Shown here: positions 24,141 through 55,778 of the stretch, one piece after another
Position numbering within the stretch: position 1 is the first letter of the stretch
Layout of the letters: every line of letters starts with the position of its first letter
NCBI RefSeq assembly: GCF_025143985.1
Contig: NZ_CP083564.1
Location: 428,501-492,500 of the forward strand
Direction of reading: 5' to 3'
DNA length: 64,000 bases
DNA from: Sulfitobacter sp. W027
GTDB lineage: Bacteria; Pseudomonadota; Alphaproteobacteria; Rhodobacterales; Rhodobacteraceae
The notes under the pieces: model-generated
The model's database searches: none
Seen by the model: the letters and a program-made list of their open reading frames with translations, nothing else
What the model was told of the DNA's origin: nothing
Made by a program: the position numbers and the translations under genes

Positions 24141-26012
24141 ATGCCAAGCCCGACCCCCAATATAAGCGAAAACCGCCCCGTCATCCGCCAGTTGGACGAT
24201 TCCGCGATCAACCGCATCGCGGCGGGCGAGGTGGTCGAACGTCCGGCTTCTGCGGTGAAGGAACTGGTCGAGAACGCCATCGATGCGGGCGCGCGGCGGA
24301 TCACCGTTGAATATGCCGACGGCGGCAAGACAATGATCCGTGTGACTGACGATGGGTGCGGCATGGCGCCCGAGGATCTGACGCTGGCCTTGTCCCGGCA
24401 CGCGACCTCCAAAATCGATGGCTCCGACCTGCTCGACATCCACACCTTTGGCTTTCGGGGGGAGGCATTGCCGTCCCTCGGCGCGGTGGGACGGCTCACG
24501 ATCACCAGCCGAGCGCCGGGGTTTGGCGGGGCCGAGATCACCGTCGACGGCGGACGCATGGGCGACGTGCGCCCTGCTGCGCTCAACAGCGGCACCATCG
24601 TTACCCTCCGCGACCTGTTCTTTGCAACGCCCGCGCGGCTGAAGTTCTTGCGCACCGACCGGGCAGAGGCGCAGGCCATCGGCGATGTCATCAAACGGCT
24701 CGCCATGGCCGAACCCTTCGTGCGCTTTGTGCTGCGTGATGTCTCGGGCGATGGCAAAGGCCGCGACGTTTTCCGGGCCGAGGCCGAGCAAGGCGATCTG
24801 TTTGAGGCGCTTCATGGCCGTCTGGCACAGGTGCTGGGCCGCGAGTTTGCCGAAAATTCCCTGGCCATCGACGCGATGCGCGAAGGGCTGCATCTGACCG
24901 GTTTCGCTGCCCTGCCGACCTACTCGCGCGGCTCTGCGGTGGCACAGTATCTCTTCGTGAATGGCCGCCCGGTGCGGGACAAACTGCTGACCGGGGCGCT
25001 GCGGGGCGCTTATTTCGACTTCCTCAGCCGGGACCGCCACCCGGCGGCGGCGCTCTTTGTCGAATGCCCGCCGACCTTGGTGGATGTGAACGTACACCCG
25101 GCCAAATCCGAGGTCCGCTTCCGCGATCCCGGGCTGGCACGCGGGCTGATCGTCTCGGCCTTGCGTCATGCGCTGGCCGAAGCCGGACACCGTGCTTCGA
25201 CAACCGTGGCGCAGGCAACCTTGGGCGCGATGCGGCCAGAGCCACAGGGTGCACGGGTCTATCAGATGGACCGCGCTGGCATGGAGCGCCCCAGCCCCGC
25301 CGCACGTGAGGCCGCATATCAGGCGCAAGCGCCGGGCTTTGCCGAGACCGCTGGCGTTTGGGGGCGGGTGGAGGGCACGCCGATGCCCGAAGCACCGGCT
25401 GATGCACAGGCGTCCGAGACGCTAGCACCGGACTACCCGCTCGGCACGGCCCGCGGGCAGGTGCATGAGAATTACATCATCGCCCAAACCGCCAACGGCA
25501 TGGTCATCGTTGACCAACACGCGGCGCATGAGCGGTTGGTCTATGAAAAACTGAAACGCCAGATGAATGACAACGGCGTCGCCGCGCAAGCGTTGCTGAT
25601 CCCTGAAATCGTTGAACTGTCTGCAAATGACTGTGCCCGTCTGCTGGAGCTTGCCGCCGAACTCGCGAAGCTAGGCCTTGGCATCGAAGGCTTTGGCGGC
25701 AGCGCCATCGCCGTGCGCGAGACGCCTGCGATCCTCGGCACCGTCAACGCCCGCGCGTTGATCCTTGATGTGTTGGACGAGTTGGACGACGGCGACAGCA
25801 GCAACATCGTGCAGGCCAAAATCGAAGCGATCCTGAGCCGCGTGGCCTGTCACGGCTCGATCCGTTCGGGCCGCTTGATGCGCGCCGAAGAAATGAACGC
25901 GCTCTTGCGTGAGATGGAGGCGACGCCGCATTCGGGCCAGTGCAACCACGGGCGGCCAACCTATGTCGAACTCAAACTCGCCGACATCGAACGGCTTTTC
26001 GGGCGCACTTGA
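24141..26012 (+). CDS. mutL: DNA mismatch repair endonuclease MutL
   Basis: 623 residues. The N-terminal GHKL ATPase has [27 protein letters not shown] and [11 protein letters not shown]. The following transducer domain ends near [14 protein letters not shown]. After a poorly conserved linker the C-terminal domain carries the endonuclease metal motif [12 protein letters not shown] (DQHAx2Ex4E), plus ACHGSIRSG and CNHGRPTY. So this MutL should nick DNA itself, as expected in bacteria without MutH/Dam-directed repair. Its stop overlaps the rmuC start (TGATG). Confidence 0.97.
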
Positions 26013-27253
26013 TGGAGCTTGGCGGCACGACGTTGAACCTGTCTGACCCTGTGACGCTGGCCGCCCTTGCCGGCGCCGGGCTGCTGTTGCTCATCGTTAT
26101 CCTGCTGATCATGGCGGTCCGCGCCGCTGGCCGCTCGGCCCGTGTGGCGGCACCCTTGGCACAGCAGATGCGCATTCTTGGAGGGCATGTGCAGCAGTTG
26201 GGGCAGGGGCAGGAGCAGTTGCGCGGCGGGTTGCAGATGGTCTCGGACACCCAAACCAACACCCAAGCGCAGATGATGCAGAGCATGGAGGCGCGGCTGG
26301 CCCATGTGCAGCAGCAGATGCAGGACCGCTTGGCCGACAACGCCGCCCGCTCGGCCCGATCCTTGGCCGAGATGCAGCAGCGCATGACCGAAACGCTGCA
26401 CGGCTCGTCAAAGCGCACCACCACCAGCCTGACGCAGTTGCAAGAGCGGCTCGCCTCCATCGACAAGGCGCAGGACAACATTACCAAACTTTCGGGCGAT
26501 GTGCTGTCGCTGCAGGACATCCTGAGCAACAAGCAAACACGCGGCTCATTCGGCGAAATTCAGTTGCGTGACATCGTGTCCAAAGCGCTGCCGAGTGACA
26601 GCTATTCGCTGCAAGCGACCCTCAGCAACGGCAAGCGGCCCGATTGTCTGATCCACCTGCCCAACCCGCCGGGGCCGATCGTAATCGACAGTAAATTCCC
26701 GCTGGAAGCCTATGAGGCGCTGCGCCGGGCCAAGACCGAGATTGAGACCCGCGCCGCGGCACAGCAGATGAAAACTGCCGTGCGGGTGCATCTGAATGCG
26801 ATTGCCGACAAGTATATTCTGGAGGGCGAGACCGCTGAAGGCGCGTTGATGTTCCTGCCCTCTGAGGCGGTTTATGCCGAGTTGCACGCCAACTTCCCCG
26901 AACTGGTGCGCGAAGGGTTTGAAAAGCGTGTTTGGATCGTCAGCCCGACCACCTGCATGGCCACGCTCAACACCATGCGCGCGATCCTGAAAGATGCGCG
27001 GATGCGTGAACAAGCGGGGGCGATCCGCCGTGAGTTGGGCAATCTGAACAAGGACGTTGAGCGTCTAGCGATGCGTGTCGGCAACCTCGACCGGCACTTC
27101 AGCCAAGCGCGGCGCGATGTCGAAGAGATCAAAGTCAGCAGCGAGAAAGCCGCCAAACGCGCAGGCCGTCTGCATAATTTCGACTTCGAAGAACTGGCAG
27201 AAGAGAAAAGCGAGGCTATTGTTCCCTTAAGGACACCCAAAGGGAACGGCTGA
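26012..27253 (+). CDS. rmuC: DNA recombination protein RmuC
   Basis: 413 residues from the ATG overlapping the mutL stop. One membrane helix near residues 12-34 anchors it. A long coiled coil follows (about 40-170, rich in Q, heptad pattern), then the RmuC nuclease-like domain with KQTRGSFGEIQLRDIV, IVIDSKFPLEAYEAL and FLPSEAVYAEL. RmuC limits inversions at short repeats in E. coli by a still unclear mechanism. Coupling to mutL suggests a shared genome-stability role. The next gene starts directly after its stop. Confidence 0.93.
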   Translation: MELGGTTLNLSDPVTLAALAGAGLLLLIVILLIMAVRAAGRSARVAAPLAQQMRILGGHVQQLGQGQEQLRGGLQMVSDTQTNTQAQMMQSMEARLAHVQQQMQDRLADNAARSARSLAEMQQRMTETLHGSSKRTTTSLTQLQERLASIDKAQDNITKLSGDVLSLQDILSNKQTRGSFGEIQLRDIVSKALPSDSYSLQATLSNGKRPDCLIHLPNPPGPIVIDSKFPLEAYEALRRAKTEIETRAAAQQMKTAVRVHLNAIADKYILEGETAEGALMFLPSEAVYAELHANFPELVREGFEKRVWIVSPTTCMATLNTMRAILKDARMREQAGAIRRELGNLNKDVERLAMRVGNLDRHFSQARRDVEEIKVSSEKAAKRAGRLHNFDFEELAEEKSEAIVPLRTPKGNG

Positions 27254-28267
27254 ATGAACGACGTGGACATTACCGGTATGACGCTGGAGGCGATGCAAAC
27301 GCGGGCCGCCGCGTTACGCAGCGATATCTTGCAAACGCCGGTGGTGACGTTGTCCTCTCCTATGGTTGATGATGTGTTGGGTGGCGCGCGGATCGCGCTT
27401 AAGCTGGAGTGTTTTCAGCATACCGGCACCTTCAAGGCCCGCGGCGCGCTTTCGGTGGCGCGACAGCTTGACGATGACACCCGCGGGCGCGGGATCACCG
27501 CAGCCAGTGCGGGCAACCACGCCATCGCAGCAGGCTGGGCCGCGGCCAAGCTCGGCATCAGCGCCAAGGTGGTGATGCAGGACAACGCCAATCCTTTTCG
27601 CGTTGCCCTCGCCCGTGCCACTGGGGCCGAGGTCATCATGAAACCCCCGGGAGCCGAGACTTTCGCCGAGGCGGAGCGGCTCGTGCGTGATGAGGGGCGG
27701 TTTTTTATTCACCCATTTGAAGGGCTGCACACCTCGCTCGGAACTGCCGGCCTGGGGCTGGAACTGATGGCACAGGTGGCGGATCTTGATGCGGTCGTCG
27801 TCTCGGTCGGCGGCGGCGGGCTTATTAGCGGGGTGGCTGCGGCGGTCAAGGCGATCAACCCCGCCTGCCGGGTCTACGGTGTGGAGCCTGAAGGCGCCGA
27901 CAGCATGTCGCAAAGTCTCGCCTCTGGCGCGCCTGTCACCATCCCGCAGGTCAACACAATCGCCGACAGCCTCGGCCCGCCGATGGCGTTGCCCTTCGGT
28001 CATGCGCTCTGTGCGGTCTATGTCGACGATGTGGTGACGGTCAGCGATGATGCGATCTGCGCCGGAATGGTGGTGCTGCAACAGGCGGCGAAACTGGCGG
28101 TGGAGCCTGCCGCCGGGGCTGCGATGGCCGGGGCGCTTGGCCCCTTGCGCGCGCAACTGGCAGGGCGGCGTGTCGGCGTGATTGTCTGCGGGGCGAATAT
28201 CGACACTGACAGCTATCTGGCGCAACTCACCCGTGGGCAGGCAGCGCTTGAAAGCCTGCTGTCTTAG
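27254..28267 (+). CDS. PLP-dependent serine/threonine dehydratase family protein
   Basis: 337 residues of the fold-type II PLP family (threonine dehydratase/serine racemase-like). The Schiff-base lysine is in FQHTGTFKARGA, the cofactor-binding Asn motif is ASAGNHA, and the glycine-rich phosphate loop is SVGGGGLISGV. It lacks the C-terminal ACT-like regulatory domain of biosynthetic IlvA, so it is more like a catabolic TdcB-type dehydratase or a serine racemase. The ATG directly follows the rmuC stop, so it belongs to the mutL-rmuC transcript although its role is unrelated. Confidence 0.9.
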   Translation: MNDVDITGMTLEAMQTRAAALRSDILQTPVVTLSSPMVDDVLGGARIALKLECFQHTGTFKARGALSVARQLDDDTRGRGITAASAGNHAIAAGWAAAKLGISAKVVMQDNANPFRVALARATGAEVIMKPPGAETFAEAERLVRDEGRFFIHPFEGLHTSLGTAGLGLELMAQVADLDAVVVSVGGGGLISGVAAAVKAINPACRVYGVEPEGADSMSQSLASGAPVTIPQVNTIADSLGPPMALPFGHALCAVYVDDVVTVSDDAICAGMVVLQQAAKLAVEPAAGAAMAGALGPLRAQLAGRRVGVIVCGANIDTDSYLAQLTRGQAALESLLS

Positions 28268-28335: not shown

Positions 28336-28365
28336 TGCAACTTTAACTCCCCTTTATCCGTGTTT
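28336..28365 (+). promoter_or_regulatory. Possible ECF-sigma promoter of the FAD/DUF1365 operon
   Basis: TGCAACTT (28336-28343) and CGTGTTT (28359-28365) give an AAC-N17-CGT pattern, typical of ECF sigma promoters in general. The R. sphaeroides sigma-E pattern (TGATCC with TAAGA), as I remember it, is not seen in the 136 bp upstream of the operon. Visual match only. Confidence 0.3.
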
Positions 28366-28403
28366 GCCCCATATCCAAAGTCCCGGACCAAAGCAGGACC
28401 CCT

Positions 28404-29723
28404 ATGCCTTTTGAAGCTCTGAACGACGCCATCCACCCCCAGCATCCTCTCGACCGACGGGTCGCGGTGATTGGCGGGGGAATTTCCGGTATGGGGGCGG
28501 CACATATGCTGGCGCCCGCAGACCGGGTGACCCTGTTTGAGGCAGGCGCGCAAATAGGTGGCCATGCCCGTACGGTGATGGCGGGCAAAAACGGCGATCA
28601 GCCGGTAGATACCGGGTTTATCGTGTTTAATTATGCCAACTATCCGCATCTTGCGGCGCTTTTTGCGGAGTTGGACGTGCCGGTTGTGCCGTCGAACATG
28701 AGCTTTGGCGCGTCGATTGACGGCGGGCGTCTGGAATATGCGCTGACCAATTTTAACGCGGTCTTTGCTCAGAAACGCAATATGTTCAGCCCGCCTTTCC
28801 TGCGGATGCTGCGCGATATCGTGCATTTCAACAAAAACGCTCTGGCTGTCTCGCGCGATCCGTCGATGACCATTGCCGAGTTTCTCGACCGGCTTGGCAC
28901 CGGGCGCTATTTCCGCGACTTCTACCTCTCGCCGCTTTCCGGTGCGATCTGGTCCACCCCGACCGAAAAGATCATGGACTTCCCGGCCCATGCCATGGTC
29001 AACTTTTTCGAGAACCACGCGCTGCTGAACTATTCCGGCCAGCATCAGTGGTACACGGTGAAGGGCGGCTCGCGGCAATATGTCGACCGGCTAGAGAGCG
29101 CCCTGCGCGCCAAGGGCGTCGCGTTGCGCACCGACAGCGCCGTGCAGGCCGTGCGGCGAACCGCGCAGGGTGTTGAGGTCCATGTTTGGGGCGGTGAGTG
29201 GGAGGCGTTTGACGAAGTGATCTTTGCCACCCATTCCGATGACACGCTGGCAATGCTTTCTGACCCGACCGAGGCTGAGCAGCGTGCGCTCGGGGCGATC
29301 CGCTACCAGCCTAATGACATTGTGTTGCATGCAGATACCAGCATCATGCCCAAGCGCCCCTCCACATGGGCATCTTGGGTCTATACTGAGGATCGGGAGC
29401 AGAAGTCTGACCGGATCGACCTGACCTATTGGATGAACTCGCTCCAATCGATCCCGCAGGATGATCCGCATTTCGTGACCCTCAACACCAAACGCACGAT
29501 CCGCGAAGAGCTGATTTACGATCAAGTCACCCTGCGCCATCCGGTCTATGATCTTGCCGCCTTGGCCGCGCAGGAGGAGGTGCGTGCGTTTAACGGCAGC
29601 CAGAATACGTGGTTCTGCGGCGCTTGGATGCGGCACGGCTTTCACGAAGACGGGCTGGCCAGTGCGGTGGATGTGGTTGAGCGGATGCAGACCGCGCGGG
29701 CGGCGCCCTTGGCGGCGGAGTGA
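28404..29723 (+). CDS. FAD-dependent amine-oxidase-like enzyme (fatty acid modification operon)
   Basis: 439 residues. The dinucleotide motif VAVIGGGISGMGAAHML is at about 21-37, the FAD-contacting GGHARTV follows, and a C-terminal NTWFCGAWMRHGFHEDGLASAVD closes the FAD site, as in flavin amine oxidases and carotenoid/fatty-acid desaturase-like proteins. The gene order suggests orthology to the flavin amine-oxidase-like gene of the R. sphaeroides singlet-oxygen regulon (RSP_1091 as I recall), part of a set linked to furan fatty acids; UfaD is described there as a fatty acid desaturase. The precise assignment is from memory. GTGA overlap with the next gene; ribosome binding site AGCAGGA. Confidence 0.85.
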   Translation: MPFEALNDAIHPQHPLDRRVAVIGGGISGMGAAHMLAPADRVTLFEAGAQIGGHARTVMAGKNGDQPVDTGFIVFNYANYPHLAALFAELDVPVVPSNMSFGASIDGGRLEYALTNFNAVFAQKRNMFSPPFLRMLRDIVHFNKNALAVSRDPSMTIAEFLDRLGTGRYFRDFYLSPLSGAIWSTPTEKIMDFPAHAMVNFFENHALLNYSGQHQWYTVKGGSRQYVDRLESALRAKGVALRTDSAVQAVRRTAQGVEVHVWGGEWEAFDEVIFATHSDDTLAMLSDPTEAEQRALGAIRYQPNDIVLHADTSIMPKRPSTWASWVYTEDREQKSDRIDLTYWMNSLQSIPQDDPHFVTLNTKRTIREELIYDQVTLRHPVYDLAALAAQEEVRAFNGSQNTWFCGAWMRHGFHEDGLASAVDVVERMQTARAAPLAAE

Positions 29724-30508
29724 CGGCAGGCGTCGATCATATCAGCGGTCAGACCTTCCATGGCCGCAAGGGCGCGGTCGAAAACCGCTTTCGCTATTCG
29801 GTAGACTATGTGCTTTGCGATGCGGAGACCGAGGTATTGGCCACGCCCGCGCTGTTCGCCCGCAATGGTACGGGGCTGACCAGCCTGCAAGACAGCGACC
29901 ATGGCGGCGCGCCGGGGCAGGGGCGCGGCGCTGCTTGGGCGCGCGATGTGTTGGCGGCACACGGCATCTCTGGCGTGGCGCGGATAGAGCTTTTGGCGCA
30001 GCCGCGTGTGCTAGGTCATGTCTTTAATCCCGTCAGCTTCTGGCTTTGTCGCAGGGCGGACAACGCGCTGATTGCGGTGATTGCTGAGGTCACCAATACC
30101 TACGGCGACCGGCATTCTTATCTTTGCCATCACCCTGACCTGCGGCCTATTCTGCCTGAGGATCGGCTGGAGGCGGCTAAACTCATGCATGTCTCACCCT
30201 TTCAGGATGTCTCGGGCGGTTATGTGTTTCGGTTTGATATTAACCCTGAGCGGATCGGCATCTGGATCGATTTCACGGATGGTGAGAATGGGTTGATCGC
30301 GACATTGACCGGGCCGCGTGCGCCGCTGACGAACGGCCGCATCCTCTGGTCGCTGCTGCGCCGACCCTTCGGTGCGCGGCGGGTGCTGGCCTTAATCCAT
30401 TGGCAGGCGCTGAAACTCTGGCTCAAGCGCGCCGGATTTCGCGGTCGGCCTGAGGCGCCCGAGATCGAAGTCTCGCGCGACAGCGCCCATGGCGCGGGTG
30501 GCAGATGA
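29720..30508 (+). CDS. DUF1365 family protein
   Basis: 262 residues from a GTG start overlapping the previous stop. DUF1365 is recognised by FRYSVDYVLCD near the N-terminus, the LLAQPRVLGHVFNPVSFWLC block, EVTNTYGDRHSYL and the KLMHVSPFQDVSGGYVFRFDI block. The family is almost always found beside the FAD enzyme of the previous entry and often a cyclopropane-synthase-like methyltransferase. Proposed roles involve modified membrane fatty acids, but no biochemical function is firmly known to me. No membrane helices or signal peptide. Confidence 0.88.
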   Translation: MTAGVDHISGQTFHGRKGAVENRFRYSVDYVLCDAETEVLATPALFARNGTGLTSLQDSDHGGAPGQGRGAAWARDVLAAHGISGVARIELLAQPRVLGHVFNPVSFWLCRRADNALIAVIAEVTNTYGDRHSYLCHHPDLRPILPEDRLEAAKLMHVSPFQDVSGGYVFRFDINPERIGIWIDFTDGENGLIATLTGPRAPLTNGRILWSLLRRPFGARRVLALIHWQALKLWLKRAGFRGRPEAPEIEVSRDSAHGAGGR

Positions 30509-31740
30509 AGAGGCCTGCGGCGCGACTGCCCGCCTATGCGCTCTTCGCGGCACTGCTCGCAGCAGCGGGGCTGCCGATCTACATCCATGCACCGAAATTC
30601 TATGTCGATGAATATGGCGTATCGCTGGCTGCTCTCGGCTCTGTCCTGTTTGCGCTGCGGCTGCTCGATGTCGTGCAAGACCCTGCACTCGGTTGGTTGG
30701 CTCAAAGGCTTCGTGCCCAGCGGGCGGCGGCGGTGGCGGGGGCAGGCGCGGTAATGGCGCTGGCGATGCTGGGGCTTTTTGCCGTGCCGGCCCCTGTGGC
30801 TCCGGTGCTATGGTTCGCGCTGATGCTGACGCTGGTTTTCTCCTCTTTCAGTTTCCTGACCATTTGCTTTTACGCGCAGGGGGTCGCAAAGGCTGACATG
30901 CTCCCCGGTGCGGGGCATCTGACGCTGGCGCGTTGGCGTGAGACCGGGGCGCTGTTGGGCGTTTGTGTGGCATCCGTGGCCCCATTGCTGCTGGGCTTGG
31001 CCCTCGAACGGCCCTTTGCCGGTCTTGCAGTGGGCTTTGCCATCTTGGCCCTCTGGGCAATCACTGCGATGCGCGGCGAATGGCGCGCGGCGGGGCCGCC
31101 CATGGCCAGCGGATTTGGCACCGTTTTGCGGGACCAGCAGGCGCGGCGGTTGCTGCTGATCGCGCTGGTTAATGCCGCGCCGGTGGCCGTTACGTCGACC
31201 CTGTTTCTGTTCTACGTTGAGTTGGCGCTCGACGCGCGGGGGTGGGAAGGGCCGCTTTTGCTGCTCTTCTTTCTTGCTGCTGCGGCGGCGGCCCCGATTT
31301 GGGGAATGCTGGCCGAACGCTTTGGCGCGCGGCAGGTTTTGTTGTTTGCGATGACCTTAGGCATTGTGGCCTTTGGTGGCGCGCTGCTGCTGGGGCCGGG
31401 GGATGTGATGCTTTTCGCGCTGGTCTGTCTGGCCTCTGGCGCAGTTCTGGGCGCGGATTTGACGCTTTTGCCCGCCATGTTCGCCACCCGTATGGCGCAG
31501 ATCGCCCCCTCCGCTGCCGAAGGTTTCGGTCTTTGGTCCTTCGTATCTAAATTGACCTTGGCTTTCGCGGCGGCGGCCCTACTTCCAGCTTTAGAACGCG
31601 CAGGGTTACAGACCGGTGCGGGAGACAGTTCCGACACATCCATCTCCCTGTTGATCTGGTTCTATGCTGGTGTACCTTGCGCTTTGAAATTGCTGGCGAT
31701 CGCTCTGCTTGCCAGTACCAATGACGTGGAGAAACTGTGA
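30505..31740 (+). CDS. MFS transporter (GPH-like) of the fatty acid modification operon
   Basis: 411 residues, about 12 membrane helices in two sets of six. The first helices read YALFAALLAAAGLPIYIHAPKFY. The RLLDVVQDPALGWL segment after helix 2 is typical of glycoside-pentoside-hexuronide-type major facilitator carriers. In this operon a sugar symporter makes little sense, so it may move a lipid or oxylipin; that is an inference. It overlaps both neighbours by 4 bp (ATGA at its start, GTGA at its end), indicating fixed stoichiometry of the five products. Confidence 0.85.
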   Translation: MKRPAARLPAYALFAALLAAAGLPIYIHAPKFYVDEYGVSLAALGSVLFALRLLDVVQDPALGWLAQRLRAQRAAAVAGAGAVMALAMLGLFAVPAPVAPVLWFALMLTLVFSSFSFLTICFYAQGVAKADMLPGAGHLTLARWRETGALLGVCVASVAPLLLGLALERPFAGLAVGFAILALWAITAMRGEWRAAGPPMASGFGTVLRDQQARRLLLIALVNAAPVAVTSTLFLFYVELALDARGWEGPLLLLFFLAAAAAAPIWGMLAERFGARQVLLFAMTLGIVAFGGALLLGPGDVMLFALVCLASGAVLGADLTLLPAMFATRMAQIAPSAAEGFGLWSFVSKLTLAFAAAALLPALERAGLQTGAGDSSDTSISLLIWFYAGVPCALKLLAIALLASTNDVEKL

Positions 31741-32303
31741 CAGAGCCGTTGATCTTTATCGCTGTCGGGCTTGCGCTTGGTCTATTGCTGACCTTTCTGC
31801 GCCGCCGTTTGGGAGAGTTCCACGGGCAATCGCCGAGCGACTATGTCGATTCCTTCCCTGTCTTCGACCTGCGCTTGCATCTGCGGGACAAAATGATCTG
31901 CGAGGGCGTGATCTTTGGCCCCCTGGGCCGTGTTACCAGCAGTTTTACCGCGAATTTCGACGTGTCCTGGGAGGGCAACGTGGCGACGGTGGCCGAGACT
32001 TTCCGCTACAATGACGGTTCGCGTCAGGAGCGGGAATGGACCGTGACGCTGGGCAAGAACGGCAATTTCACCAGCACCGCGCCGGATGTGATCGGTGAGG
32101 GGCAGGGGATCCAGTCAGGGCCGACACTGCTGCTACGCTACCGTATCCGTCTGCCCGAAGAGCTTGGCAGCCATGTGCTGAAAACGGTCGATTGGATGTA
32201 TCTGACCCCCGACGGCACCATCGTGAACCGCAGCCAGTTTCGAAAATTCGGGATTAAAGTAGCAGAATTGGTCGCCACGCTGCGACCGGCGGAGGAACGA
32301 TGA
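31737..32303 (+). CDS. DUF3833 family membrane-anchored protein
   Basis: 188 residues with GTG start. A single N-terminal hydrophobic segment (about 4-22) is followed by a soluble domain of about 165 residues: SDYVDSFPVFDLRLHLRDK, ICEGVIFGPLGRVTSSF, VATVAETFRYNDGSRQER and a C-terminal TVDWMYLTPDGTIVNRS. This matches DUF3833, whose members are often lipoproteins; here there is no lipobox cysteine. The beta-rich pattern is lipocalin-like, so lipid binding is plausible. No experimental function is known to me. Confidence 0.82.
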   Translation: MTEPLIFIAVGLALGLLLTFLRRRLGEFHGQSPSDYVDSFPVFDLRLHLRDKMICEGVIFGPLGRVTSSFTANFDVSWEGNVATVAETFRYNDGSRQEREWTVTLGKNGNFTSTAPDVIGEGQGIQSGPTLLLRYRIRLPEELGSHVLKTVDWMYLTPDGTIVNRSQFRKFGIKVAELVATLRPAEER

Positions 32304-33031
32304 AGGACTGGCAAGGCAAGACCTTTTGGCTGGTGGGCGCAAGCGACGGACTTGGCGCGGCGCTGGCCCATCAACTCAGCCGCACCGGGGCGGAGGTGAT
32401 CCTTTCCGCCCGGTCAGAGGACAAGCTGACCGAATTGGCCTCAGCCCTGCCGGGGCGGGCGCGGGTGCGGGTCTTGGATGTGACCGATGAGGCCGATGTC
32501 GCCGCCGCTGCGCAGGAGATCGGTCCGATTGATGGGCTGGTCTATCTGGCCGGAGCCTATTGGCCCTTCGGTGCGAAGGATTGGCAAGCGGGTCACGCCG
32601 TAACCATGGCGGATGTGAACTTTACCGGCCTGTTGCGCGTGCTGGGACAGGTCGTGCCGCAGATGGTTGCCCGAGATGAGGGGCATATCGTCATCACCTC
32701 TAGCCTGACCGCCTATCGGGGGCTGCCCGGCTCAATCGGCTATACGGCCTCCAAGGCGGCAACAATGTCTTTGGCGGAATGTATGCACGCCGATCTGCGC
32801 AAGACAGGCGTGCAGGTTCAGGTCATCAACCCCGGTTTCATCAAGACCCAGTTGACCGACAAGAACGACTTTAAAATGCCCTTCTTGATGGCGCCGGAAG
32901 ACGCCGCGCGGCGGGTCTATGAGCATATGAACAGCGACAGTTTCAAACTGGATTTCCCGTACGGGTTCTCGCTGCTGTTCCGTTTGGGGCGGTTCCTGCC
33001 GGATTGGCTGTACTACCGGTTCTTTTCCTGA
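32300..33031 (+). CDS. Short-chain dehydrogenase/reductase of the fatty acid modification operon
   Basis: 243 residues. The cofactor motif is LVGASDGLGAALAH (TGxxxGxG type with VGA), the NAG-like position is YLAGAYW, the catalytic Ser is in ITSSLTAY, and the YxxxK pair is in GYTASKAA. Specificity within SDRs cannot be read off. The last gene of the five-gene operon, overlapping DUF3833 by 4 bp. Its stop is only 2 bp from the stop of the convergent saccharopine dehydrogenase-like gene, with no terminator between. Confidence 0.88.
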   Translation: MKDWQGKTFWLVGASDGLGAALAHQLSRTGAEVILSARSEDKLTELASALPGRARVRVLDVTDEADVAAAAQEIGPIDGLVYLAGAYWPFGAKDWQAGHAVTMADVNFTGLLRVLGQVVPQMVARDEGHIVITSSLTAYRGLPGSIGYTASKAATMSLAECMHADLRKTGVQVQVINPGFIKTQLTDKNDFKMPFLMAPEDAARRVYEHMNSDSFKLDFPYGFSLLFRLGRFLPDWLYYRFFS

Positions 33032-33033
33032 GT

Positions 33034-34089
33034 TCAGACTTCGGCGACATGCTGATCGAACAGCTTTCGCGCGCGTTGCCAGACGGCATTGTCCGTTTCT
33101 GGCAGGGCCCGCAGCGTTGGCAACAACTGGCTAGCAAAATCTTCCGAGCTTTCGCGCGGCAGCATTGAGGGCAGGTTGTCGATGGCCATGACATCCAGCG
33201 GCGGAGTGTCATGCACGCGCAGCGCTGGCACCGCCCAAGTGGTCGCGCGGTCATAGACCTGCACCGGGTTGAAGGCGCTGTCGGGGTCGCAGGCAATGTC
33301 ACCAATCACGCGCAGGGCGCGCTCGGCCTTGGGGGCGTCAGGGTGGACGAAGGCCGGAGTGTCCGGGCCCGCGAGGATGCAATTGAAGAAATAGGCGTGG
33401 TCGAGAATTTCCGGGAACGGCCCGCCATGGGTGGTCTCTGCCATGTCCCAGCAGGTGACTGGGATGCGCAGAGCCGCGCAAAGATCGCTGGCCCCACGGC
33501 CCACCCGGCCCAAGGCCCCGATGACCAGCGCGCGGTCGCCGCTTGCGTCAACCTGAGCGAGTTCTTCGGCCAGCGCGGCTTTTAGAGCTTCGGCGTCGGG
33601 GTAGGGCTGCACCGGGCCGCAGGTCTTGCCACGCAGTTGCGCGATGCGGCATTTAACGGAAATCGCAGCCCCGGCAAACCCGGCCCAATAGCCAAAGGCG
33701 GCAACGCGGCGGCCCGCGTCATCGGTCAAATACTCTAAATCCAGCAACGTGCCGCCACCCGCCTTGAACTGTTCCAGTAGTTTGCGGCCCGAGGATTGCC
33801 CCTTGTAGGCATGGCCGAACATGATGTGGGTATGCGGCAGGGGCGTGCCGTCTTCGGGCAGCTCCTTCAGGCCAAAGATCACCGCATCGCGCGGGGCGTC
33901 GGGCCAGCTATGCGCCGGAACGATCTCGCAGCCCGCCTGCGCATAGGCGGCGGTGGGGATCACGCGGCTGTCGCTGTCTTCGACGCTCACCTTCATGCCT
34001 AGGGCGATCAGCGCGGCAGCCCCTTCAGGTGTCAGCCCGGTGCGTGTCTCATTATCGCGCTGCTCGGCGCGGAGCCATAGATGGGTCAT
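33034..34089 (-). CDS. Saccharopine dehydrogenase (NAD+, L-lysine-forming), LYS1 type
   Basis: 351 residues. Matches the fungal LYS1 family rather than the LYS9 type: RTGLTPEGAAAL near the N-terminus, the catalytic Lys75 in FGLKELP and His93 in HIMFGHAYKGQ, then YWAGFAGA, a Rossmann motif VIGALGRVGRGA and a C-terminal DNLPSMLPRESS. Fungal LYS1 interconverts saccharopine with lysine and 2-oxoglutarate using NAD. In a bacterium that makes lysine by dapB, the role is likely lysine breakdown or another opine-like reaction; substrate unproven. It overlaps the GST gene by 4 bp. Confidence 0.9.
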   Translation of the reverse strand: MTHLWLRAEQRDNETRTGLTPEGAAALIALGMKVSVEDSDSRVIPTAAYAQAGCEIVPAHSWPDAPRDAVIFGLKELPEDGTPLPHTHIMFGHAYKGQSSGRKLLEQFKAGGGTLLDLEYLTDDAGRRVAAFGYWAGFAGAAISVKCRIAQLRGKTCGPVQPYPDAEALKAALAEELAQVDASGDRALVIGALGRVGRGASDLCAALRIPVTCWDMAETTHGGPFPEILDHAYFFNCILAGPDTPAFVHPDAPKAERALRVIGDIACDPDSAFNPVQVYDRATTWAVPALRVHDTPPLDVMAIDNLPSMLPRESSEDFASQLLPTLRALPETDNAVWQRARKLFDQHVAEV

Positions 34090-34709
34090 GCCAAGATCCC
34101 TTTCGCGCGAACGGCCTTGAGGCTGGCACGGTCTTCCATGCGGGCGGCGAAGGCATCGAGCCGTGGGTAAGCCGCGCGGTCGACCCCGTCACCGGCCAGC
34201 CATCCCGAGACGACAAAGAGATAGGGATCGGCCAGCGACAGGGCATCGCCCGCAACGAAGTCACCTCGGAAGGCGTGGTTTTCGATATAGGCCGCGCAAT
34301 CGGCCATGGTCTGCGGCACCTTGGCTTTCATATCGTCAAAACTGGATTGCTGATCGGCCCAGCGGTGGCCGCGCATCTTATGAGCATGGGCCACATGCAT
34401 GGTCGAGGCGAGGTAGTACATCACCCCGCGCATATGGGCCGCGAGTTCAGGGTCAGCCGGGACCAGCGCCGCCTCGGGCGCGCGGGCGGCGACATAGTCC
34501 AACAGCGCGCCAGTCTCGGTCAGGGCGCTGCCCGCTTCGGTCACGAGGGTCGGCACCCGGCCCTTGGGGTTCAGCGCCAGATAGGGCGCGGCGGTCTGTT
34601 CGGCGGCGGCGAAATCGACCTTCACCGGCTCATAGGCCAGCCCCGCTTCTTCGAGGGCGATGGCGACGGCGACCGAGATCGTGCCGGGGGCGTAGTGAAG
34701 TTTCAGCAT
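34086..34709 (-). CDS. Glutathione S-transferase family protein
   Basis: 207 residues with an N-terminal thioredoxin-fold domain (LKLHYAPGTISVAVAIALEEAG; RVPTLVTEAG; ALTETGALLDYVA) and an all-helical C-terminal domain with VAGDALSLADPYLFV. The catalytic site is probably the Ser of PGTIS, as in beta-class enzymes. Middle gene of a minus-strand set: histidine phosphatase, GST, LYS1-like dehydrogenase. Confidence 0.9.
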   Translation of the reverse strand: MLKLHYAPGTISVAVAIALEEAGLAYEPVKVDFAAAEQTAAPYLALNPKGRVPTLVTEAGSALTETGALLDYVAARAPEAALVPADPELAAHMRGVMYYLASTMHVAHAHKMRGHRWADQQSSFDDMKAKVPQTMADCAAYIENHAFRGDFVAGDALSLADPYLFVVSGWLAGDGVDRAAYPRLDAFAARMEDRASLKAVRAKGILA

Positions 34710-55703: not shown

Positions 55704-55778
55704 TGGTGGGCGATACTGGGATCGAACCAGTGACCCCTTCGATGTCAACGAAGTGCTCTACCGCTGAGCTAATCACCC
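55704..55778 (-). tRNA. tRNA-Val (anticodon GAC)
   Basis: Full cloverleaf on the minus strand, 75 bases including an encoded CCA. The acceptor arm pairs GGGTGAT with ATCGCCC (one G-U pair). The anticodon stem CTTCG/CGAAG holds the loop TTGACAT with GAC, and the T-loop is TTCGATC. It reads valine codons GUC/GUU. No integrase or attachment repeat was seen beside it. Confidence 0.97.

Follow-up and report, generated by a model that had tools for sequence, protein, structure and literature searches.

Furan fatty acids (FuFAs) are made in Rhodobacter sphaeroides by three enzymes, according to the accessible text of PMC7380195: UfaM (RSP2144) supplies a methylated precursor, UfaD (RSP1091) desaturates the methylated acyl chain, and the DUF1365 protein UfaO (RSP1090) is necessary and, with O2, sufficient for conversion of the UfaD product to the furan acid. 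The same source reports that deletion of all five genes of the operon containing ufaD and ufaO abolished the furan acid and that single deletions of RSP1087, RSP1088 and RSP1089 left the fatty acid profile unchanged. The available part of a further study proposes that the furan lipid is both a scavenger and part of the signal for ChrR breakdown (PMC6852236). Here we describe an operon of this type in Sulfitobacter sp. W027 (hereafter the host), at positions 28404-33031 of a stretch of 64,000 nucleotides (NZ_CP083564.1, 428,501 to 492,500, forward strand) that is referred to as the window. We consider it quite probable that this is a FuFA operon which has lost the rpoE-chrR pair and its sigma-E promoter and is kept under other control, the regulatory half of this statement being the less certain. 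This reading is carried by the observed set of genes, by the missing pair, by differences between the promoters and by low ratios of nonsynonymous to synonymous substitution (dN/dS). While the operon itself is real and known, its regulation, namely the repeated parting from ChrR, is the new part.

Absence of the rpoE-chrR pair and divergence of the ufaD promoter

In another genome of the genus (G055) the gene order is mutL, rmuC, chrR-rpoE (on the opposite strand), ufaD, ufaO, MFS, DUF3833, SDR and a downstream gene pair. The host locus shows an equal order, but chrR-rpoE is absent and a PALP gene lies directly 5' of ufaD, at a distance of 136 bases, which is too short for the pair. Seven relatives (L070, L075, L082, L090, L110, L115 and L119) have the order rmuC, ilvA, chrR, rpoE, ufaD, which makes loss of the pair a simpler explanation than an inserted PALP gene. 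The ChrR family has 0 matches in the host genome at E 0.001, and the G055 RpoE finds no close relative there, with the best match at 30% identity. A gene for an extracytoplasmic function (ECF) sigma factor with 31% identity to RpoE was noted at L128 (G000:C1:788437-788928); an open reading frame (ORF) of 245 aa overlaps its end and one of 184 aa lies further on, and these could include an anti-sigma factor.

Promoter comparisons were made after setting aside two loci cut by contig ends (L073, L122), which were also left out of the trees, and four divergent clusters (L099, L101, L120, L121). On the rpoE side, all 18 native-type ChrR-positive operons carry TGATCC-N16-CGTA with zero mismatches, which is the consensus that the accessible portion of PMC5507510 gives for the P. 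syringae homologue of the sigma factor. On the ufaD side, the ChrR-positive operons carry a weaker version, mostly ACATCC-N16-CGTA. A relaxed sigma-E-like pattern precedes ufaD in 18/18 ChrR-positive as against 1/35 ChrR-lacking operons (0.05 and 0.07 expected from shuffles), and matrix scores of the ufaD promoters differ between the two groups (Mann-Whitney p 3e-8, uncorrected for kinship). At the host locus the corresponding place appears to be eroded (see the table). A sequence-only reading of the window had likened the operon to one of the R. sphaeroides singlet-oxygen (RpoE/ChrR) regulon; with no ChrR match, no adjacent pair and no sigma-E-like site at ufaD, membership of that regulon is not supported here. 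A distinct element, TGCAACT-N15-CCGTG, is present in relaxed form in 27/35 ChrR-lacking and 9/18 ChrR-positive operons, with 0.03 and 0.015 expected.

Phyletic patterns, changes of state and selection

Across 62 Sulfitobacter genomes UfaO is found in 59 and ChrR, above the family cut-off, in 23; UfaO occurs without ChrR in 36 genomes, both occur in 23, neither in 3 and ChrR alone in 0. Scored as ChrR-lacking were 17 further genomes of the genus with ChrR-family matches below the cut-off only, most of them partial. Leaving the host aside, 58 of the 61 other genomes have a UfaO match, and all 58 loci were read. Of 120 genomes drawn evenly across the family, 86 have both proteins, 13 have UfaO alone (G017 among them having a long ChrR match just below the cut-off, and G012, G022 and G033 only partial DUF1365 matches), 1 (G114) has ChrR alone and 20 have neither. 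The dependence runs one way: ChrR almost never occurs without UfaO, and UfaO commonly occurs without ChrR.

A DUF3833 profile provided a set of 80 fetched loci, of which the 65 longer than 14 kb were scored and the 15 of 14 kb or shorter dropped; by their names the scored loci belong to one bacterial family, except for one Enemella. Homologues of UfaD, UfaO and SDR lie nearby in 65/65 and of MFS in 57/65, an association that exceeds chance. As chrR and rpoE stand beside the operon in 60/65, and the five exceptions (L157, L158, L165, L170, L175) all belong to the genus sample, UfaO without ChrR appears to be mainly a pattern of Sulfitobacter. The operon without ChrR is also seen in a few other members of the family, such as G066 and G067.

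A tree of 57 operons (UfaD, UfaO, MFS and SDR joined) entails 9 changes of ChrR state, at least 6 of them forced by supported branches. Removal of the four divergent clusters reduces this to 7 changes (at least 4 forced), and the tree of the flanking gene rmuC for 50 loci likewise has 7 (at least 4 forced), with 9 of 59 loci dropped, namely the same four clusters and five with no or too-short rmuC match. All three trees come from quick searches, and the later two draw mostly on the species of the first. The family-wide rpoE-chrR arrangement favors repeated loss over gain, and the direction of change was probably loss.

In 13 pairs of ChrR-lacking operons, 63 of 64 gene values of dN/dS fall between 0.013 and 0.188, the outlier of 0.351 occurring at a dS of 0.02. 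The ChrR-lacking operons are under purifying selection, and such low values show that the operon is not decaying after loss of the pair.

Taken as a whole, we lean slightly towards the view that in several Sulfitobacter lineages the furan operon outlived its singlet-oxygen sensor, the promoter changed and the pathway became a standing defense; the one-way dependence would fit a furan lipid that is an obligatory input to ChrR and has a function of its own. In the open-licence literature we found no paper joining Sulfitobacter with furan fatty acid and, among the papers listed for Sulfitobacter, ECF11, RpoE, ChrR or singlet oxygen, no title or abstract start reporting a furan operon without ChrR. 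The accessible part of PMC10949492 describes the phototroph KRV36 as lacking RpoE and ChrR, which means that a missing pair is in itself already known elsewhere. The scavenger and signal roles of the furan lipid are hard to separate, and ChrR-lacking species with the pathway, standing beside ChrR-positive sisters, separate them naturally; these species also offer strains in which the MFS, DUF3833 and SDR genes can be studied free of the ChrR regulon.

Gene content of the operon and the furan fatty acid route

The five ORFs, all on the plus strand, are joined at four junctions, each an exact 4-base overlap (GTGA, ATGA, GTGA, ATGA), which confirms the five-gene set proposed earlier and suggests that the products are made together. 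All five Pfam matches exceed the family cut-offs. The earlier comparison with the R. sphaeroides RSP_1091-1087 operon is likewise upheld by gene order and domains, and synteny and domains point to orthology of ufaD and ufaO with their R. sphaeroides counterparts. The ufaD-like gene occupies the same place in the order as RSP1091 and its product has 75% identity to that of G055 ufaD, while the ufaO-like gene encodes the single DUF1365 copy of the host genome. Over 1321 columns the operon and its G126 counterpart are 97% identical at the protein level.

Features of the ufaD locus in Sulfitobacter sp. W027, in window coordinates
Feature	Position	Strand	Basis
mutL and rmuC, upstream synteny anchors	24141..27253	+	Flank comparison with relatives
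IlvA-like PALP gene, directly 5' of ufaD	27254..28267	+	Pfam match; chrR-rpoE intervenes in several relatives
TGCAACT-N15-CCGTG element 5' of ufaD	28336..28362	+	Conserved in many ChrR-lacking and some ChrR-positive operons
Putative eroded place of sigma-E-like promoter	28348..28373	+	TCCCCT for ACATCC, CATA for CGTA; column alignment, matrix scores, pattern counts
ufaD-like gene, predicted acyl desaturase of the FAD amine-oxidase family	28404..29723	+	439 aa, ATG start; Pfam Amino_oxidase 79 bits
ufaO-like gene, DUF1365 protein	29720..30508	+	262 aa, GTG start; Pfam DUF1365 229 bits
Predicted MFS_2 carrier	30505..31740	+	411 aa, ATG start; Pfam MFS_2 187 bits
DUF3833 protein	31737..32303	+	188 aa, GTG start; Pfam DUF3833 150 bits
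Short-chain dehydrogenase/reductase (SDR)	32300..33031	+	243 aa, ATG start; Pfam adh_short 141 bits
AlaDh_PNT_N-domain gene and GST gene, downstream synteny anchors	33034..34709	-	Pfam matches, flank comparison

The sequence-only reading had found no cyclopropane-synthase-like methyltransferase nearby, which is correct for the window and not for the genome. The search for a ufaM-like gene elsewhere, which it had called for, recovered one strong CMAS match (289 bits, C1:1641855-1642670) in a UfaM-like protein of 403 aa (C1:1641837-1643045) whose gene adjoins a photolyase gene. RSP_2144 and RSP_2143 (phrA) appear together in the accessible text of PMC7074977. UfaM at 76% identity or more is present in 60 of the 62 genus genomes. 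With this gene alongside ufaD and ufaO, the three-enzyme route UfaM-UfaD-UfaO looks complete in the host, judged from its gene complement, and the "unknown chemistry" earlier ascribed to the whole operon is confined to the MFS, DUF3833 and SDR genes, which have no assigned role, the reactions of UfaD and UfaO having been published for R. sphaeroides. If the reactions proceed as in that organism, the UfaM-like enzyme would make a methyl-branched acyl chain, to which UfaD would add a second double bond on the phospholipid, and UfaO would close the furan ring with O2.

The predicted carrier matches MFS_2 (PF13347) with 187 bits at a cut-off of 27, and the best solved-structure relatives of its profile are MFSD2A proteins. 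Its earlier labeling as GPH-type is not supported, TIGR00792 scoring 45.6 bits against a curated cut-off of 231.35. The structure model of the DUF3833 protein, with a predicted local distance difference test (pLDDT) score of 92.8, consists of an N-terminal helix and a ten-strand barrel; in the model the barrel is closed and antiparallel, in keeping with the lipocalin-like (calycin) fold anticipated for it. By reading, the SDR protein has the S...Y...K residues, which we take to be the motif of its family. DUF3833 is absent from four native operons of the genus, and neither MFS nor DUF3833 was found in the four divergent clusters. The products of the last three genes (MFS carrier, anchored barrel protein, SDR) might be accessory to the furan lipid route, perhaps handling oxidized or released furan lipids.

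Several further observations concern these loci. The four divergent ufaD-ufaO-ufaM-SDR clusters (L099, L101, L120 and L121, in G166, G178, G136 and G135) adjoin their own chrR-rpoE, have about 37-57% identity to the window proteins and come from genomes with no second DUF1365 match. A second type of DUF3833 protein (L007, L010, L012, L019), with 27-28% identity to the operon type and a lipoprotein-like cysteine near the N-terminus, co-occurs with the latter in some genomes. At L049 (G051:C4) no ufaD match was found beside ufaO; the locus holds a 13,962-aa open frame, which suggests a run of masked bases, so the missing match is not trustworthy. At L123 (G127), MutL, UfaO, MFS and DUF3833 each match as two pieces, with read errors or decay being possible. 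The sole tRNA of the window, and its sole Rfam match, is a tRNA-Val (anticodon gac) at 55704-55778 on the minus strand.

Present control of the operon and relation to described systems

Under the explanation that we prefer, the rpoE-chrR pair would have been lost in the host lineage and the sigma-E promoter of ufaD would have decayed, with the operon retained by selection, presumably under a different promoter, and the furan lipid acting as a standing quencher outside the ChrR feedback loop. Several points weigh against it. The relaxed sigma-E-like pattern was defined after the sites had been inspected, and the matrix scores overlap, the ChrR-lacking L068 and L118 reaching the usual ChrR-positive value and the ChrR-positive L074 and L076 scoring lower. 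Quick-search trees cannot tell gain from loss, and G114 has a ChrR above the cut-off (C294:16142-16756) without a DUF1365/UfaO match, the sole such case in 120. The host genome contains four weak ECF matches, and a ChrR diverged to the degree of that of R. capsulatus, which the accessible account gives as 13% identical and recognized only by structure, would escape a profile search. These last two points also speak for a possible, though doubtful, alternative: singlet oxygen or a related stress would still govern the operon, by way of a different sigma factor of ECF or RpoH type or of a diverged ChrR. It could draw on the weak RpoE matches (best 30-31%), on L128 with its following ORFs, which may include an anti-sigma factor, and on the TGCAACT-N15-CCGTG element, whose spacing loosely resembles that given for RpoH1/RpoH2 in the available text and whose relaxed form is so frequent in ChrR-lacking operons. 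The lack of any ChrR-family match in the host at the threshold used argues against it, as does the genomic distribution of the element, which is exact only once; the 26 sites with one mismatch or less (the exact one included) compare with 18 for the reversed control, so that no regulon is seen. With near forms hardly enriched genome-wide, a role of the element as an alternative promoter is only a suggestion.

It is unlikely that the pair was dropped passively upon loss of photosynthesis, with the operon lingering and little used. The host has no pufM match, and pufM is above the cut-off in 18 of the 62 genus genomes, with ChrR in 12 of these 18 and in 11 of the 44 others (Fisher p 0.003, or 0.0004 once the four divergent clusters and the three genomes lacking UfaO are removed). 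On independent pairs, however, the median p is 0.5, significance being out of reach there; six pufM-positive genomes lack ChrR and 11 pufM-negative ones retain it, and the low dN/dS of ChrR-lacking operons opposes lingering without use. Still less probable is that the last three genes encode core enzymes or transporters for a product other than the furan acid of R. sphaeroides. Such a role would agree with their wide retention with UfaD and UfaO under purifying selection; it conflicts with the full ufaM, ufaD and ufaO set, with the unaltered fatty acids of the three single deletions reported in the accessible text of PMC7380195, and with the operons and clusters that do without DUF3833 or MFS.

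A FuFA operon released from ChrR, our preferred reading, can be set against the described systems as follows. The RSP1091-1087 operon and ufaM (RSP2144) of R. sphaeroides, as presented in the available parts of PMC7380195 and PMC3818230, share with the host the order ufaD, ufaO, MFS, a protein without assigned function, SDR, as well as the position of ufaM away from the operon and beside a photolyase gene; unlike R. sphaeroides, the host is without an adjacent rpoE-chrR, a ChrR match or a sigma-E-like site at ufaD. The Sigma-E/ChrR (ECF11) core regulon, in the accessible text of PMC6852236, includes orthologous furan lipid genes and a photolyase gene, whereas the host is missing the regulator pair and its operon does not qualify as a member. 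Among solved structures, the MFSD2A lysophosphatidylcholine symporters are the closest relatives of the MFS profile, yet distant (E 4e-6, over part of the chain), and the modeled DUF3833 barrel would have its fold in common with nitrobindin and the fatty-acid-binding barrels.

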